NCBI GenBank assembly: GCA_019695175.1 | Contig: JAIBAM010000001.1 | Location: 213,689 to 277,688 of the forward strand | Source of the DNA: Bdellovibrionales bacterium | Lineage (GTDB): Bacteria > Bdellovibrionota > Bdellovibrionia > Bdellovibrionales > UBA1609 | Reading direction: 5' to 3' | DNA length: 64,000 bases | Shown: piece after piece, positions 43,981-53,183 of the stretch | Numbering within the stretch: the stretch's first letter is position 1 | Layout: the number at the start of each line of letters is the position of its first letter | The notes under the pieces: model-generated | Told to the model about the DNA's origin: nothing | The model's input: only the letters and a program-made list of their open reading frames with translations | Databases searched by the model: none | Translations under genes and position numbers: made by a program

Positions 43981-44327
43981 CTTAGTTACCCTTACTTAAA
44001 CGGACCTTCTTTTTTTTCTACAAAAAGAGGTCTTTGTTTCAAATAGACTCTGGGAAAGTGACCCCATCATTTCTATCAATGTTAGCGTTATCTAGAACTA
44101 GAACGATGGGGGACTTATTGTGCGTATAATTGGTAGTGACCGAAAAAAAAATGAATGTCACGACATAGTGATGTGCGGCAGCAATGTATTGGCTGCTTGA
44201 GTCCATTCCTGGACGACTTTATGGTTTTTGTTATAGGGTGGAGTTTTATTGACAGACCAATCCATTGAATTCTTAAGGAAATATTACTGCGCAAGTGTTA
44301 TTGCGCGGGATTGTTAAAGGGTTTTTC
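43981..44327. promoter_or_regulatory. Divergent control region between etfBA and sdhCAB
   Basis: No gene is seen in these 347 bases. On the plus strand a TTGACA at 44249-44254 lies 17 bases before CTTAAG (44272-44277), a candidate sdh promoter with a weak -10. In the leader, GCGCAA (44289-44294) and TTGCGC (44301-44306) form a six-base hairpin just before the AAAGGG ribosome site. TATAAT occurs alone at 44125-44130. A dyad, TCAC and GTGA around six bases, lies near 44158-44171. Confidence 0.35.
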
Positions 44328-44999
44328 ATGTTGCAAAAATATTGTTTTTTTAAATCCACTATTGGCCGAAAACAGCTGGTGGCGTTAACTGGCTTGATTC
44401 TCAGTCTTTTCGTACTTACTCATATGGCTGGAAATTTGCTTATTTTAGTGAGCCCCCAGAAATACAATGAATATGCCCATAGTTTGGTCTCAAATCCATT
44501 CCTGGAGCTTATTGAATGGGTGTTATTATTTGCGTTGGTAAGTCATTTTATTATTGCGATGAAGCTTCAGATCAACAATTTCAAAGCAAAGCCTCAAGCC
44601 TACGCCAGGTCTGGACAAGGAAAAAAAGGTACAGATCCAGTGAGCCAAACTATGGCCATACAAGGATTATTAATTCTTGTATTTATTGTGCTTCATCTCA
44701 TAACTTTTAAATATGGAACTAGTTATGAAGTTAATTACGGTACTGGACCCATGCGCGATCTTCATAGACTGGTGGTTGAAGTGTTTCACAATCCAATCTA
44801 TGTCGGCTGGTATCTGGTAGCCCTAGTTGTTCTGGGGCTTCATCTGAAACATGGGGTGAAGTCTTTATTTCAAACATTAGGGTTTAATCACCCTAAGTAT
44901 CAGTGTGCTTTGCAGGTCTTTGCTCTTCTTTATGCAATCGTAGTTTCCTGTGGTTTTATTATTCAGCCTATTTACGTGTATTTTATTTTTCAGAATTAA
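44328..44999 (+). CDS. sdhC: Succinate dehydrogenase/fumarate reductase cytochrome b558 subunit
   Basis: The membrane anchor that carries two b hemes and the quinone site. I place the start at ATG 44328, with AAAGGG six bases upstream, giving 223 residues; an earlier in-frame codon at 44295 lies in the hairpin leader. It has five predicted membrane helices, starting KQLVALTGLILSLFVLTHMA, with His residues in THMAGN, VSHFIIAMK, VLHLITFK and GLHLKHGVK as likely heme ligands. The pattern is the single-anchor b558 family (B. subtilis, Bacteroidetes and deltaproteobacterial types), not the E. coli SdhC/SdhD pair. Confidence 0.9.
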   Translation: MLQKYCFFKSTIGRKQLVALTGLILSLFVLTHMAGNLLILVSPQKYNEYAHSLVSNPFLELIEWVLLFALVSHFIIAMKLQINNFKAKPQAYARSGQGKKGTDPVSQTMAIQGLLILVFIVLHLITFKYGTSYEVNYGTGPMRDLHRLVVEVFHNPIYVGWYLVALVVLGLHLKHGVKSLFQTLGFNHPKYQCALQVFALLYAIVVSCGFIIQPIYVYFIFQN

Positions 45000-45021
45000 T
45001 AGATTCTAAAATGGAGAAGTC

Positions 45022-46944
45022 GTGGTGAAATTAGATTCCAAAGTTCCATCTGGAAATATTCAGGATAAGTGGGAACGTCACAAGTTCGAAATGAAACTGG
45101 TGAACCCAGCGAACAAACGAAAACACACTGTTCTTGTTGTTGGGACTGGCTTGGCTGGAGCTTCAGCAGCGGCTTCACTTGCTGAATTGGGTTATAAAGT
45201 AAAAGTTTTTTGTATCCAAGACTCTCCACGAAGAGCTCACTCGATTGCAGCTCAAGGCGGGATCAACGCAGCTAAGAACTACCCCAACGATGGTGATTCC
45301 GTGTGGCGGTTGTTTTATGACACGGTTAAAGGTGGTGATTTTCGAGCTCGCGAAGCTAACGTTTATAGATTGGCTCAAGTATCAGTTAATATTATCGATC
45401 AGTGTGTAGCGCAGGGTGTTCCTTTTGCCAGAGAATATGGCGGTCTCTTGGACAATCGGTCTTTTGGGGGAGCGCAGGTTTCAAGGACTTTTTATGCTAG
45501 AGGACAAACTGGTCAGCAGCTACTACTCGGGGCCTATCAGGCGCTCATGAGACAAGTGGGAAAGGGTGCCGTTCAGTTGTTCTCCCGTCGCGAAATGCTC
45601 GATTTGGTTTTAGTAGATGGTAAAGCCAGGGGGATCACTGCTAGGAATTTGGTTTCTGGTGAAATTGAGAGTTATTCAGGGGATGCTGTCTTATTGGCCA
45701 CCGGTGGTTACGGAAACGTTTATTATTTGTCGACCAACGCTAAGAATTCAAACGTGACGGCCTCATGGAGATGTCATAAAAAGGGAGCCCTTTTTGGAAA
45801 CCCGTGTTTCACTCAAATTCATCCTACATGTATACCCCGCTCAGGCGATTATCAATCCAAGCTGACTTTGATGTCGGAGTCGTTACGCAATGACGGTAGA
45901 GTTTGGGTTCCCAAAGCTAAAGATGACAAGCGTCATCCAGCGGAGATTCCAGAAAGTGAAAGGGATTTTTACTTAGAAAGAATTTATCCTAGTTTTGGAA
46001 ATCTAGTGCCGCGTGACGTGGCTTCTCGGCAGGCAAAGTTTCGTGTGGATGAAGGTCGAGGGGTTGGCCATACCGCGGAAGCCGTTTACTTAGATTTTGG
46101 TGATGCCATTAAGCGCTTAGGGCAAGAGGCTATTTCGGAAAAATATGGCAACTTGTTCCAAATGTATGAAAAAATAACGGGAGAAAATCCCTACAAGCAG
46201 CCCATGAGAATTTTTCCTGCAGTTCACTATACTATGGGAGGGTTGTGGGTCGATTACAATTTGATGAGTTCAATTCCTGGATTGCATGTCTTAGGAGAGG
46301 CCAATTTTTCAGATCATGGTGCCAACAGATTGGGTGCTAGTGCTTTGATGCAGGGATTGGCTGACGGGTATTTTATTATCCCTTACACTTTAGGGAACTA
46401 TTTATCCTCAAATAAATTTGAGAGTTTAAATGAAACTCATCCTGCTTTTATTGAAAGTAAAAAACAAGTTTCACAAAAATTAATGCAGCTACTTTCTGTC
46501 AAAGGGAAGCGAACTTCGGATGAAATCCATCGTCAGTTGGGACAACTGATGTGGGAGTACGTTGGAATGTCACGCACCAAACAGGGGTTACAAAAAGTGG
46601 CTAAGGACATTGCTGGCCTAAGGGAAGAGTTTTGGAAAAATGTTTGCGTTCCTGGTGATGCAAACTTTAAAAACTCATCTTTAGAGCACGCTTGTAGGTT
46701 GGCCGACTTTTTAGAGTTGGGTGAGCTTATGGCAAGGGATGGCTTGGAGCGCGAAGAGTCCTGTGGCGGACACTTCCGAGAAGAATTCCAAACAGCTGAT
46801 AATGAAGCTTTAAGGAATGATGAAAAGTTTTGTCATGTATCTGCTTGGGAATATAAAGGTGTGGAGAACTCACCTTTGTGGCAAATGCACCAGGAACCGC
46901 TGATTTTCGAAAATGTTAAACTGTCACAACGAAGTTATAAGTGA
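45022..46944 (+). CDS. sdhA: Succinate dehydrogenase/fumarate reductase flavoprotein subunit
   Basis: The 640-residue catalytic subunit interconverts succinate and fumarate with covalently bound FAD. Visible: the Rossmann motif [19 protein letters not shown], the flavinylation site [16 protein letters not shown] (His), the active-site block [10 protein letters not shown], and [14 protein letters not shown] 45022 has GGAG five bases upstream. It is close in length to the long (~640) non-classical type found with single b558 anchors. Confidence 0.96.
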
Positions 46945-46955
46945 GGACGCTTTAA

Positions 46956-47741
46956 ATGAAAACAATCAACCTGAAACTTAAAATTTGGCGTCAAAGTGGC
47001 CCTGAGGATAAAGGTCACTTTATGGACTTTAATGCAACTAACATATCCACTGACATGTCTTTTTTAGAAATGCTGGATGTCGTGAATTCTGATTTGATTA
47101 AACAGAATAAAGAACCCATAGAATTCGACCACGATTGTCGCGAGGGTATTTGCGGAACATGTTCTCTGGTTATTAATGGTTCAGCTCATGGGCCTGAACT
47201 AGGAACAACCACTTGCCAACTTCATATGAGAAAATTTAATGACAATGATACGGTTTATATTGAGCCATTTCGAGCTAAGGCCTTTCCTGTGATCAAAGAT
47301 TTAGTTGTGGATCGGTCTGCCTTTGACCGAATTATTGCTGCAGGTGGTTTTATTTCGGTTAACACTGGGAGTGCTCAAGATGCCAATGCAATTCCCGTTG
47401 CAAAAGAGAAAGCGGATCTATCCTTTGCTGCTGCGACTTGTATTGGCTGCGGGGCTTGTGTAGCCAGTTGTAAAAATGCTTCAGCGAGTTTGTTTGTTGC
47501 CGCCAAAATGGCCCATCTCAATTTGTTACCTCAAGGGCAACCTGAAAAAGAGAATCGGGCGCTGGCAATGGTGGCACAGATGGATCAGGAAGGGTTTGGG
47601 AGTTGCACCAATACTGGGGTATGTTCCGCAGCATGTCCTAAAGAAATCAGTTTGGAAACTATCGCGCAAATGAATCGAACCTTTCTTCAGGCTTCCCTGG
47701 GCAACAGGCCTCCAACAAAGTTATCAGAGGGTGGATTTTAA
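46956..47741 (+). CDS. sdhB: Succinate dehydrogenase/fumarate reductase iron-sulfur subunit
   Basis: The electron-wire subunit. The 261-residue protein carries three cluster motifs: [2Fe-2S] [16 protein letters not shown] with the distal Cys in TTCQLHM; [4Fe-4S] [13 protein letters not shown]; and a third set [15 protein letters not shown], the [3Fe-4S]/[4Fe-4S] site. It is 11 bases after sdhA. Direction (succinate oxidation or fumarate reduction) cannot be read from the sequence. Confidence 0.95.
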
Positions 47742-48002: not shown

Positions 48003-48266
48003 ATGAGAGCTAAGGGCTGCATGTTTTTGGCGATGGGTGTTGTTTGGATTTTTACTATTTTTGCCAGTGCAAAAGAAGACGCTGCAGAGATTCGTTGCTT
48101 CCAACAGAGCTTTCAAGTAAATCTCAGAGAAAATTTGTCTGGTCAATTAGATCAGGCGATAAATAAAACTTGTGATGTCAATAAGCCTTTCTCTTCCCAG
48201 CTTCTTAAGCTGTCCCCTGGGGGAGATTACCCATGGACTGCACTCATCTGCTGTCATAAAAAATAA
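48003..48266 (+). CDS. Small secreted protein, unknown
   Basis: An 87-residue frame with GGCGGAG six bases before the ATG and a signal peptide (hydrophobic MFLAMGVVWIFTIFASA, cleavage likely after ASA). The mature ~64 residues contain four Cys (one at RCFQQ, one at KTCDV and a CC pair at the end), which could form two disulfides. I do not recognise a family. A TTGACA lies at 47945-47950 but the matching -10 is poor. The ribosome site and export signal argue for a real gene. Confidence 0.55.
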   Translation: MRAKGCMFLAMGVVWIFTIFASAKEDAAEIRCFQQSFQVNLRENLSGQLDQAINKTCDVNKPFSSQLLKLSPGGDYPWTALICCHKK

Positions 48267-48450
48267 GAATATTTTTAACCTATCTTTTTAATTATAAATT
48301 TTAATGAAATTTATAGAGATGTTGTTATTACGATAGATCTCAACCTCGACTAAAACCTAAATTTAGTACAGTTTTACACGAAGAATATCGCCAAATTTTA
48401 AAAAGTCGTTACCCTAAGTGGGTCCATCAACCCACAAAAAGGAGACAGTA

Positions 48451-48819
48451 ATGACGAATAAAACCTATGAATTTGCAGGTTATACTTTCAAAACGTATTT
48501 CAAGAAAGCCGGACAAGGATATGAAATTGGATTAACCAGTGGTGGTAAAACCTATTTTTTTAGTAACTTTACTTCCTCAAAAGAGGCCAACAAATGGTGG
48601 AGTCAATTCAATAAGTTAATTACGGGATTTTACAAAAAGTTTAAATACACAGACGAAAATCCAAGACAGTTTTATGGCGAATTTATGGCCACCTATTTAT
48701 ACAAAGCTTACTATACATTTTTGACCGATTTGTTTAGAGGCTATGACCGTTTTTACAACAAAGAATTTGGACAAAAGTATCAAAAGTATGAGCGTATGAT
48801 GAAAGATATGGCTGCATAA
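48451..48819 (+). CDS. Small aromatic-rich cytoplasmic protein, unknown
   Basis: A 122-residue product from ATG 48451, preceded by AAAGGAG; an in-frame GTG at 48418 lies in a small hairpin and has no ribosome site. The sequence is very rich in Tyr, Phe, Trp and Lys (TYEFAGYTFKTYFKKAG, ANKWWSQFNKLITGFYKKF, YLYKAYYTFLTDLFRGYDRF). It appears to have a beta-strand start followed by long amphipathic helices, with no signal or membrane segment. No family recognised. The strong ribosome site suggests it is well expressed. A six-base hairpin (48418-48423/48430-48435) lies just upstream. Confidence 0.6.
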   Translation: MTNKTYEFAGYTFKTYFKKAGQGYEIGLTSGGKTYFFSNFTSSKEANKWWSQFNKLITGFYKKFKYTDENPRQFYGEFMATYLYKAYYTFLTDLFRGYDRFYNKEFGQKYQKYERMMKDMAA

Positions 48820-48936: not shown

Positions 48937-50562
48937 TTGAAAATTCTTATCAAGAAATTCCAGATAAAGATGTTTTTGTTTATTTATGTTTTAGTTATTT
49001 TTTATCCGCTCCTTATGCAAAAGGTGTGTGCAGAACCTTGGCTTTCTGTGCGCTATGCTCAAAACTGTGCCGCTTGCCATGCACCAGGTCGAATTAACAA
49101 ACCTGCGATCGGTAGAAGATGCACCCTTTCTTGTCAAGGTTGTCATGTAAATCCCCAGGGGGGAGGTCTTCGTAACCAATATGGAAAATGGAACCAAGAG
49201 AGGTGGTTACGGTCTTTTAGAACGCAATTTTTTAAGGATAAACCAACGCCGGCGCCACTCCAAAGACAGCCCTACTATGAACGAGTGAAGCAATTGGCCT
49301 CTCAAGCTAAGGAATTTTATGGAAATTGGCATCCTACTGAAGACATTAAAAAAGAAGGTGAAACTAATAACAGTGAATTTAGAAATGGACCTCGAGCCTC
49401 TAAAAAAGAAAAAGGTTTCAATCGGCAAACAGCAGCAAGTTCTTCAGGCTTGGGAGTCACTAAATCGGCTCTTAGTAAGGAAGCTCCTTCTATAAAGTGG
49501 ATTAAGGAAGTAGCAGTTCCTAATCGATACTTCGATAAAGACTCTTACTCTGAATGGCGTGCCGTCGTAGCCAGTGAAAGTGATTTTGTATCGACTCTAC
49601 CTAAGGATGATCCCTATCGATTAGAACGATCAGAAAGTATTACAGCTGGCGGTGATTTTAGATACTTTGTTATGAAGGCGGATGATTCGGAACTTTTAGG
49701 TGGAAAAAGTACTCGTACATGGTTTATGGGGGCTGATTTGGGTGCGAGGCTTCGTCCCACACGATATCACCAATTTTCGACCGTGGTGGAAGCACGGTTC
49801 TTAAATGCACCTTCGAATCAAGACCCTGAAGATGGATTTACTTCGGGCGCATTTGCCAAATCAGCTTATTTGCTAATGGATGACTTAGCCTACAACTCCT
49901 TCATTCAGGTGGGCCTTTATAGACCCATGTTTGGCTTGTATGATGTTGACCATGATACCATAGCCAATAGAGTGAGTGGGCTCACTCAACGAGCCGTATT
50001 TAAAGGGGTTGCGGTCGGAACTGCACCCAATGTTCCGTTTTTGGTATTAAATTATCTTCAACCCACTAAGTTAGTGGGGACAGAAAATGAGGCTTCAAAA
50101 GGGTTGGTGGCTACAACCGGATTAAGATTTGTGACCTTAGGAGCTTCTGCAGCACTTTCTTATTGGGATACTGAATATAACTCTTCATCTACGGTGAGTC
50201 GCAAAAGAAAAATGTATTCCTTGACGGGTGGACTGACTTACAAAGATTTTTTAGTGAATTTGGAACTTTTACGTGCACAGATATCCATTTCAGATGGTTC
50301 ACTTAATGCTGGAACCGTAGTCACACTACAAAGTAAATATCGAATTTGGCGTGAGAATTACATCGTGGCAAATACAGCTTATTCCAATGTTGCTACAGAT
50401 TTAACTCAAGGCAAAGGGAGCGAGTACTCTGTGGGAGTAAAGTCATTTTTGATGTCGAACTTAGAGGTTGAAGGGCTTTTTGTAGTTCGAAAACGTGATG
50501 AAAGCCCCATTGTTAAAACCGATTACAATCTCATTCAATTGCAAGCCCACACCTTTTTTTAA
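48937..50562 (+). CDS. Di-heme cytochrome c domain fused to a predicted outer-membrane beta-barrel
   Basis: From TTG 48937 (GGAAGG 7 bases upstream) the product has 541 residues; ATG 48916 is an alternative without a ribosome site. A signal peptide (to ~VCA, residue 32) leads to a compact heme region with two CxxCH motifs, CAACH (44-48) and CQGCH (66-70), plus Cys62. NPQGGGLRNQYGKW and a charged linker (~100-190) follow. The remaining ~340 residues read as alternating amphipathic strands (for example FLVLNYLQPTKLVG, GLRFVTLGASAALSYWD) and end in HTFF with a terminal Phe. This is the layout of Cyc2-type cytochrome-porin fusions, which carry electrons across the outer membrane, but with two hemes. 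Sequence homology to Cyc2 is not established. Confidence 0.7.
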   Translation: MKILIKKFQIKMFLFIYVLVIFYPLLMQKVCAEPWLSVRYAQNCAACHAPGRINKPAIGRRCTLSCQGCHVNPQGGGLRNQYGKWNQERWLRSFRTQFFKDKPTPAPLQRQPYYERVKQLASQAKEFYGNWHPTEDIKKEGETNNSEFRNGPRASKKEKGFNRQTAASSSGLGVTKSALSKEAPSIKWIKEVAVPNRYFDKDSYSEWRAVVASESDFVSTLPKDDPYRLERSESITAGGDFRYFVMKADDSELLGGKSTRTWFMGADLGARLRPTRYHQFSTVVEARFLNAPSNQDPEDGFTSGAFAKSAYLLMDDLAYNSFIQVGLYRPMFGLYDVDHDTIANRVSGLTQRAVFKGVAVGTAPNVPFLVLNYLQPTKLVGTENEASKGLVATTGLRFVTLGASAALSYWDTEYNSSSTVSRKRKMYSLTGGLTYKDFLVNLELLRAQISISDGSLNAGTVVTLQSKYRIWRENYIVANTAYSNVATDLTQGKGSEYSVGVKSFLMSNLEVEGLFVVRKRDESPIVKTDYNLIQLQAHTFF

Positions 50563-50572
50563 AAAGGTGTGG
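50547..50572. terminator. Bidirectional terminator containing both convergent stop codons
   Basis: CCACACCTTTTT (50547-50558) pairs perfectly with AAAAAGGTGTGG (50561-50572). The stop of the cytochrome gene (50560-50562) and that of the M16 protease gene (50559-50561) overlap at the hairpin tip. A/T tracts inside the stem can act as the U-run for each direction. Confidence 0.65.
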
Positions 50573-53183
50573 TGGGGCCAACGGCGGAGATGATTTCAGG
50601 TTGGGAAAATATTTTTTGTGCTAGAGACTGGATGTTATCACTGCTTACAGCTTGAATTCTGTGGGCAAACTTGTGAGTCTCTATTTCATCCAAACCGTAG
50701 ATTTCATCAAATAAAATCAAACTATTGATGCTTGAGTTTTTTTGTAAATCGATGTCGTGCCTTCCAATAAGATATTTTTTTGAACGTTCTATTTCATGGG
50801 AACTGACACGTTCATTTTTTAATTTTTCAAACTGTTCTTTTAGCATCGCTATGGCTTTTTTTCCCTTGTCTGGACTGCACCCGATATAGGCTCCAAAATA
50901 TCCGGTCTCTAGACCTTCAAGTCTTAGAGGTGCCACAGAGTATGCCAGAGAGGCTTTGTCACGTAACTCTAAAAAGAGTCGACCCCCTTGGCCTGACAAT
51001 AATGATTCTAAAACATACAAGGTATATTTATCTGGAGAGGAAAGTGTTAAACCACGGTACCCAATAACAATATGGGTTTGCTCTTTTTGTGTAAAAGAAA
51101 AATGTTCTAATTTTTGTTTAATAACTTCTGGAGGTATGGTTTTAAGTAATTTTTCGCCATGGGGAAGTTTTTGGAGGAGTTCTTCAAGATAGTTTTTTGT
51201 CTCTTCTAAATTAAAATGGCCTGTAATAGAGAGCACCAAGTTTTGAGAGGTTCTTATTTGATGATGATATTTTTCTAGGTGTGTGGGGGAAATCTGAGTC
51301 AAGGTCTCTTTGCTGCCTAAAGGATCTCGTCCATAGGGGTGATCTCCAAATATTTTGGCATTAAAATTTAAAATGGCTTTTTGAACGGGATTGTCATCAC
51401 GAAGTTGAATTTGTTCAAGCATCTGAACTTTTTCCCGTTCAACGATATCTTTTTGAAAAATATTATGGAGTAGGACTTCACTAAAAATATCTAGAATTGG
51501 TTTCAGATAAGGGTTTAGAGTGGTGAGAGAAAGTCCTAAAGAGTTTTTTCCGCTGAAAGAGGATAAAGAACTGGCAATTCGGTCCAAACCATCCATAATT
51601 TCGTTTTCTTTATGAAATTGGGTTGCTGAAACCCAAGTGCGACTCAAAAGCTCTGAAATCCCAAGGGAAGGTTTATTTTCAAGTCGAGAACCACCTAAGA
51701 GGGCCAATTTAAGATTGACCACAGGGGTATCATAATTTGGCCTTAAAAGAAGAGTGGCTCCATTTTTCAGTAAAAAACGATGGGTCATGTTTTCATCCGA
51801 GGACTTTACCTCAGAGGGTTTCGAAAAACCCTTTTGCTTTGATTTTTTATTTTTGGCTACGAACAGTGATTTTCTTATTTTTGCAGATTGAGAATAATTT
51901 GGCTTAAAATGATAAGCCCAACTTCGGATGTCTTTTATTGAAGAGGGGTTACAAGACTCTCCCATGAGAGCGCATACAATCATTCTATCTTTTTTAAAAT
52001 ATTTTTTAAAAACGGAGAGCAAATCACTTTGTTTTATTTTATTAACTTGCTTGAGGTATTTTTCAAAATACTGATAATCCCCAAATAAAAACTCAAAATG
52101 TCCAAAGACTCTGGTTTGTCCTTCTACCGTTTCTAAACTGTAAAACTGTTCACTTTGCAAATTGGTGAGAGCTTTACTTAATTCCTCTTCATCGGGGGGT
52201 TGCTTTATGAAACGATCCAATTCCAGTTCTATTTCTTTAAGGGCAACGCTAAAGTCTTGGTTAGAAAGTGTCATTGCAATTGAAATAAACCCCGGATCTT
52301 GAGCTGCGAAAAGGCTGCTTCCAATTTGATGAACCAAGGCCTTTTCAAGATGTAATTTTTGGTTAAGACGGGAACTTTCACCTTGTCCTAAAATAATATT
52401 TAAAACATCCAGAGCGACAATATCACGATGACTTACTTTTGGTGTGGGCCAAGATAAGAACAGGAAGTTTTCTTTAAAGGGGGATTCTTTGATAACAACT
52501 TTTTGACGTTGAAGGAGTTGTTCTTTAATGCGTTTTTTGTTGTTTTTGGGACCCTTTTTAAAGGTTGAAAATTTTGTAGCTATTAATGGTTTGATTTCTG
52601 CAACTTCAATGTCGCCTACAATGAATAGAGTCATGTTTTGGGCATTGTATTTTTTATGAAAGTAATTTCGAATTGTTTCCACGCCAACATTTCGAATGAT
52701 TTCTTCGTAGCCGATCACGGGTTTACCGTAGGGGTGACTTTTAAAAATAGAAGAAAACAATAACTGATGGGCCTGTCGATGGGAACTGTCCAATCCCCTT
52801 TTTATTTCTTCAAGAACGACTTCTCTTTCTCGATTCACTTCTTCGGGATCAAAAGTAGGATTTCCCATCATTTCAGCTATAATGTCTAAACCAGTAGATA
52901 AATATTGTTTTGATAAAGTGACATAAAAAACGGTTTGGTCAAATGAGGTGTAGGCGTTAATTTCTCCACCGGAGGCTTCAATAGTTTTAGCAATTTCACC
53001 AACCTTATATTTTTGAGTTCCTTTAAAAACCAAATGCTCAATAAAATGACTTATTCCACGCACTTTTTCTGGTTCATCGGCGCTTCCGGTTCTGACCCAC
53101 ATTTGAATAGTGACAACAGGTGATTTATGACTTTCTGAAAGGAGCACTGTGAGTCCATTTTTTAATTTATATTTTTTATTCAT
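50559..53183 (-). CDS. M16-family zinc metalloprotease (two-domain, pitrilysin/PqqL-like)
   Basis: The 874-residue protein has two M16 units. The first has the inverted zinc motif HFIEH (46-50) with the third ligand expected in REVVLEEIKRG (~125), so it is catalytic. The second half (from ~470) lacks HxxEH and has ELLSRTW at that place, as expected for the inactive partner domain. No signal peptide is evident, so the location is probably cytoplasmic unless exported by another route. Length and fused halves resemble long M16B/pitrilysin-type peptidases, which cut peptides. It is convergent with the cytochrome fusion and divergent from hemW. Confidence 0.9.
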   Translation of the reverse strand: MNKKYKLKNGLTVLLSESHKSPVVTIQMWVRTGSADEPEKVRGISHFIEHLVFKGTQKYKVGEIAKTIEASGGEINAYTSFDQTVFYVTLSKQYLSTGLDIIAEMMGNPTFDPEEVNREREVVLEEIKRGLDSSHRQAHQLLFSSIFKSHPYGKPVIGYEEIIRNVGVETIRNYFHKKYNAQNMTLFIVGDIEVAEIKPLIATKFSTFKKGPKNNKKRIKEQLLQRQKVVIKESPFKENFLFLSWPTPKVSHRDIVALDVLNIILGQGESSRLNQKLHLEKALVHQIGSSLFAAQDPGFISIAMTLSNQDFSVALKEIELELDRFIKQPPDEEELSKALTNLQSEQFYSLETVEGQTRVFGHFEFLFGDYQYFEKYLKQVNKIKQSDLLSVFKKYFKKDRMIVCALMGESCNPSSIKDIRSWAYHFKPNYSQSAKIRKSLFVAKNKKSKQKGFSKPSEVKSSDENMTHRFLLKNGATLLLRPNYDTPVVNLKLALLGGSRLENKPSLGISELLSRTWVSATQFHKENEIMDGLDRIASSLSSFSGKNSLGLSLTTLNPYLKPILDIFSEVLLHNIFQKDIVEREKVQMLEQIQLRDDNPVQKAILNFNAKIFGDHPYGRDPLGSKETLTQISPTHLEKYHHQIRTSQNLVLSITGHFNLEETKNYLEELLQKLPHGEKLLKTIPPEVIKQKLEHFSFTQKEQTHIVIGYRGLTLSSPDKYTLYVLESLLSGQGGRLFLELRDKASLAYSVAPLRLEGLETGYFGAYIGCSPDKGKKAIAMLKEQFEKLKNERVSSHEIERSKKYLIGRHDIDLQKNSSINSLILFDEIYGLDEIETHKFAHRIQAVSSDNIQSLAQKIFSQPEIISAVGPTTPF

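Follow-up and report, generated by a model that had tools for sequence, protein, structure and literature searches.

A gene in the 64,000-nucleotide stretch of Bdellovibrionales DNA analysed here (the window) probably encodes a single-chain outer-membrane electron conduit with two hemes, a reading to which we assign a probability of about 0.64. The protein belongs to a family of heme-porins without a name, which turns out to be widespread in Bdellovibrionota, a phylum with a reputation for predation rather than for extracellular electron transfer. To our knowledge, a heme and a porin in one chain are otherwise known from the Cyc2-type proteins. On the basis of the predicted structure, the diheme protein would probably act as a wire, made of a single chain, that carries electrons across the outer membrane, and we propose, by analogy, that it works like Cyc2 from a different barrel family and with a second heme.

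The reading frame of the gene is intact, and its longest form, starting at ATG 48916, comprises 548 aa. This codon, the TTG at 48937 taken as the start in the sequence-only reading, and ATG 48970 lie in one frame and differ only in the length ahead of the signal peptide; the TTG is plausible as a start because GGAAGG sits just upstream. The signal peptide, charged linker and C-terminal Phe that the sequence-only reading had described were all found in the ORF, whose C-terminal end reads HTFF. The window genome holds a single copy of the gene. Scanning for promoters and terminators yielded nothing informative. The coordinates of the gene's features are given in Table 1, where residues, as in the text, are counted with Cys 38 of the 548-aa ORF as position 1.

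Table 1. Features of the diheme heme-porin gene and its upstream neighbours (window positions)
Feature	Position	Strand	Basis or remarks
sdhC, sdhA, sdhB	44295..47741	+	upstream neighbours of the diheme gene; linkage not conserved
Two small ORFs	48003-48266 and 48418-48819	+	between sdhB and the diheme gene; no Pfam match
Diheme heme-porin CDS	48937..50562	+	TTG start; ATG 48916 and ATG 48970 also in frame
Signal peptide core	48970..49029	+	sequence reading; cleavage expected at ...KVCA/EPW, ~49029; xA/EPW common to homologues
Heme 1 motif CAACH (C14, C17, H18)	49066..49080	+	100% conserved, 38 sequences
Extra Cys C32 in RRC-TLS-CQGCH	49120..49122	+	invariant; diheme subfamily only, missing in monoheme relatives
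Heme 2 motif CQGCH (C36, C39, H40), then VNPxGGGxRNxYG	49132..49146	+	100% conserved, 38 sequences
Charged linker	49282..49560	+	length varies among homologues; mid-part of low AF2 confidence; low-complexity ~49330-49500
Predicted 16-stranded outer-membrane beta barrel, C-terminal Phe	49639..50559	+	AF2 pLDDT mostly >85; general porins by Foldseek
Invariant Met M234, barrel strand 2	49726..49728	+	alignment; invariant Met also in the matching region of monoheme relatives
Loop L3, strands 5-6	49921..49998	+	AF2 position; porin fold by Foldseek
Invariant His H309 (xDH motif, L3), candidate distal heme ligand	49951..49953	+	aligned across families
Invariant His H508, last strand, candidate second distal ligand	50548..50550	+	alignment; predicted pore-facing by strand alternation

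Matches to the diheme gene were obtained in 26 of 59 genomes of relatives, with identities mostly of 50-66% in the heme part and 35-45% in the barrel. When 84,980 species genomes were scanned, 50 loci emerged. Almost all are from MAGs of Bdellovibrionota, Oligoflexales and Pseudobacteriovorax included; four come from Myxococcota/deltaproteobacteria and show the same diheme layout at ~21% identity, and three come from Ignavibacteriota and have one heme. Within the phylum, strong diheme matches occur in about 25 of 291 genomes, together with a fringe of weak matches focused on heme 2. Around 40 homologues, again nearly all from Bdellovibrionota MAGs, retain both hemes and the extra Cys C32. Among 38 aligned diheme proteins the invariant Cys, His and Met residues are C14, C17, H18, C32, C36, C39, H40, M234, H309 and H508, so that the two CxxCH motifs and the extra Cys first noticed in the single sequence are 100% conserved, a pattern beyond chance. 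Full-length homologues end in a barrel-like segment, and the plainly soluble homologues that would have spoken against the sequence-only reading did not appear. The diheme Bdellovibrionota group forms one side of a branch with support 100; a tree test of a single versus a repeated origin of the diheme form in Bdellovibrionota and Myxococcota gave a p-AU of 0.39, with long branches. Sequence searches of Pfam, NCBIfam and the PDB with the diheme protein yielded no match above cut-off. In the open-access literature we found neither a description of the diheme or monoheme heme-porin family nor a biochemical study of any member. Two loci, titled Streptomyces griseus and Zetaproteobacteria (L051 and L067), match the Bdellovibrionota-type diheme gene and are probably mislabelled or misbinned MAG contigs.

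The AF2 model of the diheme protein, built from 38 sequences, has a mean pLDDT of 84.5 and a pTM of 0.83, and displays a closed barrel of 16 strands over residues ~205-511, in agreement with the barrel claimed earlier, for which structure prediction had been named as the check. The blocks just after heme 2 (41-90) reach pLDDT values mostly of 88-94; residues 33-36 are low and the linker is poorly predicted. Foldseek with this model gave 220 matches at E <= 0.001, the top 50 being all porins or other outer-membrane barrels, among them the solved general 16-strand porins Omp32, OmpT (V. cholerae), PorB and OprP, with TM-scores by target of up to 0.74. These porins share the barrel fold and an L3 between strands 5 and 6; they differ in having no heme, and their identity to the diheme protein is only ~10-12%. 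L3 of general porins is the constriction loop, folded into the pore, and H309 falls in its place, between predicted strands 5 (291-298) and 6 (325-332). Strand alternation counted from the C-terminal Phe suggests that the side chain of H508 faces the lumen.

The protein was also compared with Cyc2. Cyc2 proteins carry one heme, AXPXFAR[QK][TY] ahead of CXXCH, PXL four residues after CXXCH, and 16 strands (PMC8406198). Like Cyc2, Cyc2PV-1 and Cyt572 (PMC8406198, PMC5566968), the diheme protein combines a signal peptide, a short N-terminal c-type heme segment and a predicted 16-strand barrel (AF2, Foldseek) in one chain; its 548-aa ORF, with a hydrophobic leader read from the sequence, exceeds the 365-aa minimum, with signal peptide, expected of Cyc2, and in both proteins an A-x-P starts 12 residues before the first heme Cys. 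Unlike Cyc2, it has two hemes, with both CxxCH motifs invariant in the 38 homologues, an invariant extra Cys, and a GGG motif after heme 2. AXPXFAR[QK][TY] was not found in the protein, which reads AEPWLSVRYAQN (homologue consensus AEPWxSNRxAQN), and neither was PXL, the residues being CHAPGRIN after heme 1 and CHVNPQGGG after heme 2. Profile comparison by hhalign with six Cyc2-type proteins gave probabilities of 23-26 over the full length and 0.1 for the barrel; these six are plasmid-borne, were found with a probe written to fit the published motif, from which two deviate at one position, and are Cyc2-type by sequence and not by assay. The invariant L3 His of the heme-porins is missing from this set. 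Barrel dissimilarity alone would not exclude Cyc2 membership, because accepted Cyc2 proteins show mutual homology only at the N-terminus (PMC5566968), but together with the missing motifs it does. As judged from sequence, then, the diheme heme-porin is built like Cyc2 and is not a member of its family: the earlier description as Cyc2-like, with a heme module departing from the Cyc2 consensus, holds for the layout and for the module. In MtrAB, MtoAB and PioAB, a 26-stranded porin is joined by a multiheme cytochrome that is a protein of its own (PMC8406198, PMC10654088); the diheme protein shares with them a passage of electrons through an outer-membrane barrel, which in its case is predicted, and differs in being one chain with two hemes and 16 strands.

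The weak matches around heme 2 proved to be proteins with one heme, 350-460 aa long and laid out in the same way. By profile similarity, heme 2 and the barrel of the diheme protein belong to this unnamed family of monoheme heme-porins, characterized by CxxCH-xxPxGGG and found in Bdellovibrionota and Ignavibacteriota: the heme module with GGG/YG is present, as is a homologous barrel with the L3 His and the Met near strand 2. Against the monoheme profile A4, hhalign gave a probability of 99.6 over the full length, with the entire barrel aligned; the heme-2 module alone reached 98.3-98.5 against monoheme modules (shuffled control <1), and the barrel alone 97.1-98.4 against A4 and the Ignavibacteriota type. 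Barrel-only values of 97.6-98.4 against monoheme heme-porins compare with 0.1 for shuffled columns and 0.1 for the Cyc2-type barrel. All shuffled-column controls stayed below 1 apart from one value of 2.6; these comparisons are pairwise and their E-values are not database-calibrated. A further monoheme type, A5, resembles the diheme profile chiefly in the heme module (barrel alone 1-18) and matches A4 over 300 columns. Every subfamily examined keeps the L3 His without exception. Profile A4 matches 100 of 144 Bdellovibrionota genomes; the lowest-scoring of these, the window genome included, match just through the heme segment of a diheme protein or another heme-porin. The monoheme relatives tested gave nothing above cut-off in Pfam, NCBIfam and PDB searches, and no Pfam or NCBIfam model covers them. 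The first-heme leader of the diheme protein shows hhalign probabilities of 88 to the Cyc2 leader and 77 to the A4 leader, and the simplest reading would be a CxxCH inserted or duplicated between the leader and the heme of a monoheme ancestor. The AF2 model of an Ignavibacteriota monoheme protein also has 16 strands and a His in L3; it supports the idea of a heme plug weakly, since its pLDDT is only 63, and <50 in the heme segment.

The monoheme proteins also differ in being shorter and in their genomic setting. In 20 of 24 scored monoheme loci, some of which overlap in genome, the gene of a secreted c-type cytochrome is no more than two genes away, often together with that of a YceI protein. 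The window genome holds one cluster of monoheme heme-porin and cytochrome genes of this kind. A recurrent Bdellovibrionota cluster (L092, L094, L095, L097, L098, L099 and L116) consists of a lipoprotein cytochrome c, a YceI-like protein and the monoheme heme-porin, and no description of such a cluster was found in the open-access literature. Near the diheme gene, no cluster common to more than 5 of 32 loci was detected; only 9 of the 32 encode a secreted CxxCH protein no more than two genes away. Such proteins are mildly enriched at this distance (10 of 113 ORFs, against 8 of 245 at greater distances, p 0.035). The sequence-only reading had placed the gene beside sdhCAB and etfAB: these identities are correct, and the adjacency is uninformative, with two small ORFs intervening after sdhB. 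We consider it incidental because it is not conserved at homologous loci. The window genome encodes a cytochrome c assembly gene and both a caa3-type and a cbb3-type oxidase.

Beyond the motifs, their conservation, the predicted barrel and the family relations described above, we infer a heme plug, His ligands and an inward electron flow. The N-terminal heme module would plug the periplasmic side and the lumen of the barrel. Heme 2, common to the monoheme relatives, would be held in the pore by H309 of L3, and heme 1 would lie towards the periplasm, with H508 as its likely partner; these positions and axial ligands are putative, as AF2 places no heme. The strand-2 Met, conserved across families, is an alternative candidate distal ligand, and the invariant C32 could serve as a ligand, form a disulphide or determine heme attachment. 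Electrons from a soluble donor at the pore mouth may then pass to heme 2, heme 1 and a periplasmic cytochrome c, and from there to the caa3 or cbb3 oxidase. The electron conduit originally suggested appears plausible. It agrees with the invariant heme motifs, the predicted barrel, the cytochrome genes beside monoheme relatives and the cytochrome c assembly gene and oxidases of the window genome; the lack of conserved neighbours of the diheme gene counts against it. We are less sure of the inward direction than of the conduit itself; given a conduit, we hold inward flow to be somewhat favoured.

The same architecture would serve either direction, and electrons might instead be exported to an external acceptor under oxygen limitation. 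Bis-His hemes typically have low potential, which counts for such an outward conduit. Against it stand the two heme-copper oxidases of the window genome and the layout analogue, Cyc2, shown biochemically to oxidize external Fe(II) (PMC8406198), and we regard export as unlikely. It is also rather improbable that the protein is an outer-membrane redox enzyme or sensor, acting, for example, in peroxide or NO detoxification or in redox gating of the pore, and not a wire to the respiratory chain. Three points would fit this role: in Pfam the first heme resembles cbb3 subunit III and CCP/MauG, though very weakly and short of the curated cut-offs; the invariant extra Cys has no obvious part in wiring; and the diheme form lacks a conserved partner gene. 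However, the protein has no catalytic domain, its monoheme relatives regularly adjoin cytochrome c genes, and there is one invariant candidate distal His per heme, a count that speaks against an open catalytic site.

A divergent Cyc2 in the strict sense, that is, an Fe(II) oxidase of the Cyc2 family, would account for the layout, the 16 strands, the 12-residue spacing from the A-x-P Ala to the first heme Cys and the weak likeness of the first-heme leader (88); the missing signature motifs, the two hemes and the hhalign values for barrel and full length make it very improbable. Finally, a periplasmic cytochrome, soluble or attached to the membrane, with no barrel in its C-terminal part is scarcely credible: no point in its support was found, and it conflicts with the 16-strand model obtained at good confidence, with the Foldseek matches and with the conserved aromatic C-terminus.

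If the single-chain diheme conduit is correct, it would represent a second barrel lineage with the same heme-porin solution, using one or two hemes, in most Bdellovibrionota genomes. More tentatively, single-chain heme-porins may form a phylum-wide class serving as a respiratory outer-membrane link in Bdellovibrionota and in some Myxococcota and Ignavibacteriota, in which the diheme form would be a minimal two-step wire with hemes ligated by the pore-loop His of the barrel, making the porin part of the cofactor site; we hold this broader view to be possible rather than probable. The conserved L3 His provides a specific structural prediction. Closed single-contig genomes, possibly of cultured strains, carry monoheme members, whose function is therefore testable by gene deletion.

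Several loci show further features. In the window genome, a monoheme heme-porin on contig C34 (L108:8233-11198) has a c553-like cytochrome on one side and a divergent triheme lipoprotein cytochrome on the other. In three Ignavibacteriota MAGs (L078, L079 and L080) a 218-aa monoheme lipoprotein is encoded directly downstream of the monoheme heme-porin. Four distant loci (L040, L049, L058 and L059) have a common cluster beside the diheme gene that includes an exported protein with an RR leader, and the cluster of L049 holds FG-GAP and PSD2-type proteins. In the window itself, a gene for a double-domain M16-type-like peptidase (50559-53183, strand -) converges on the heme-porin gene with a 4-base end overlap.
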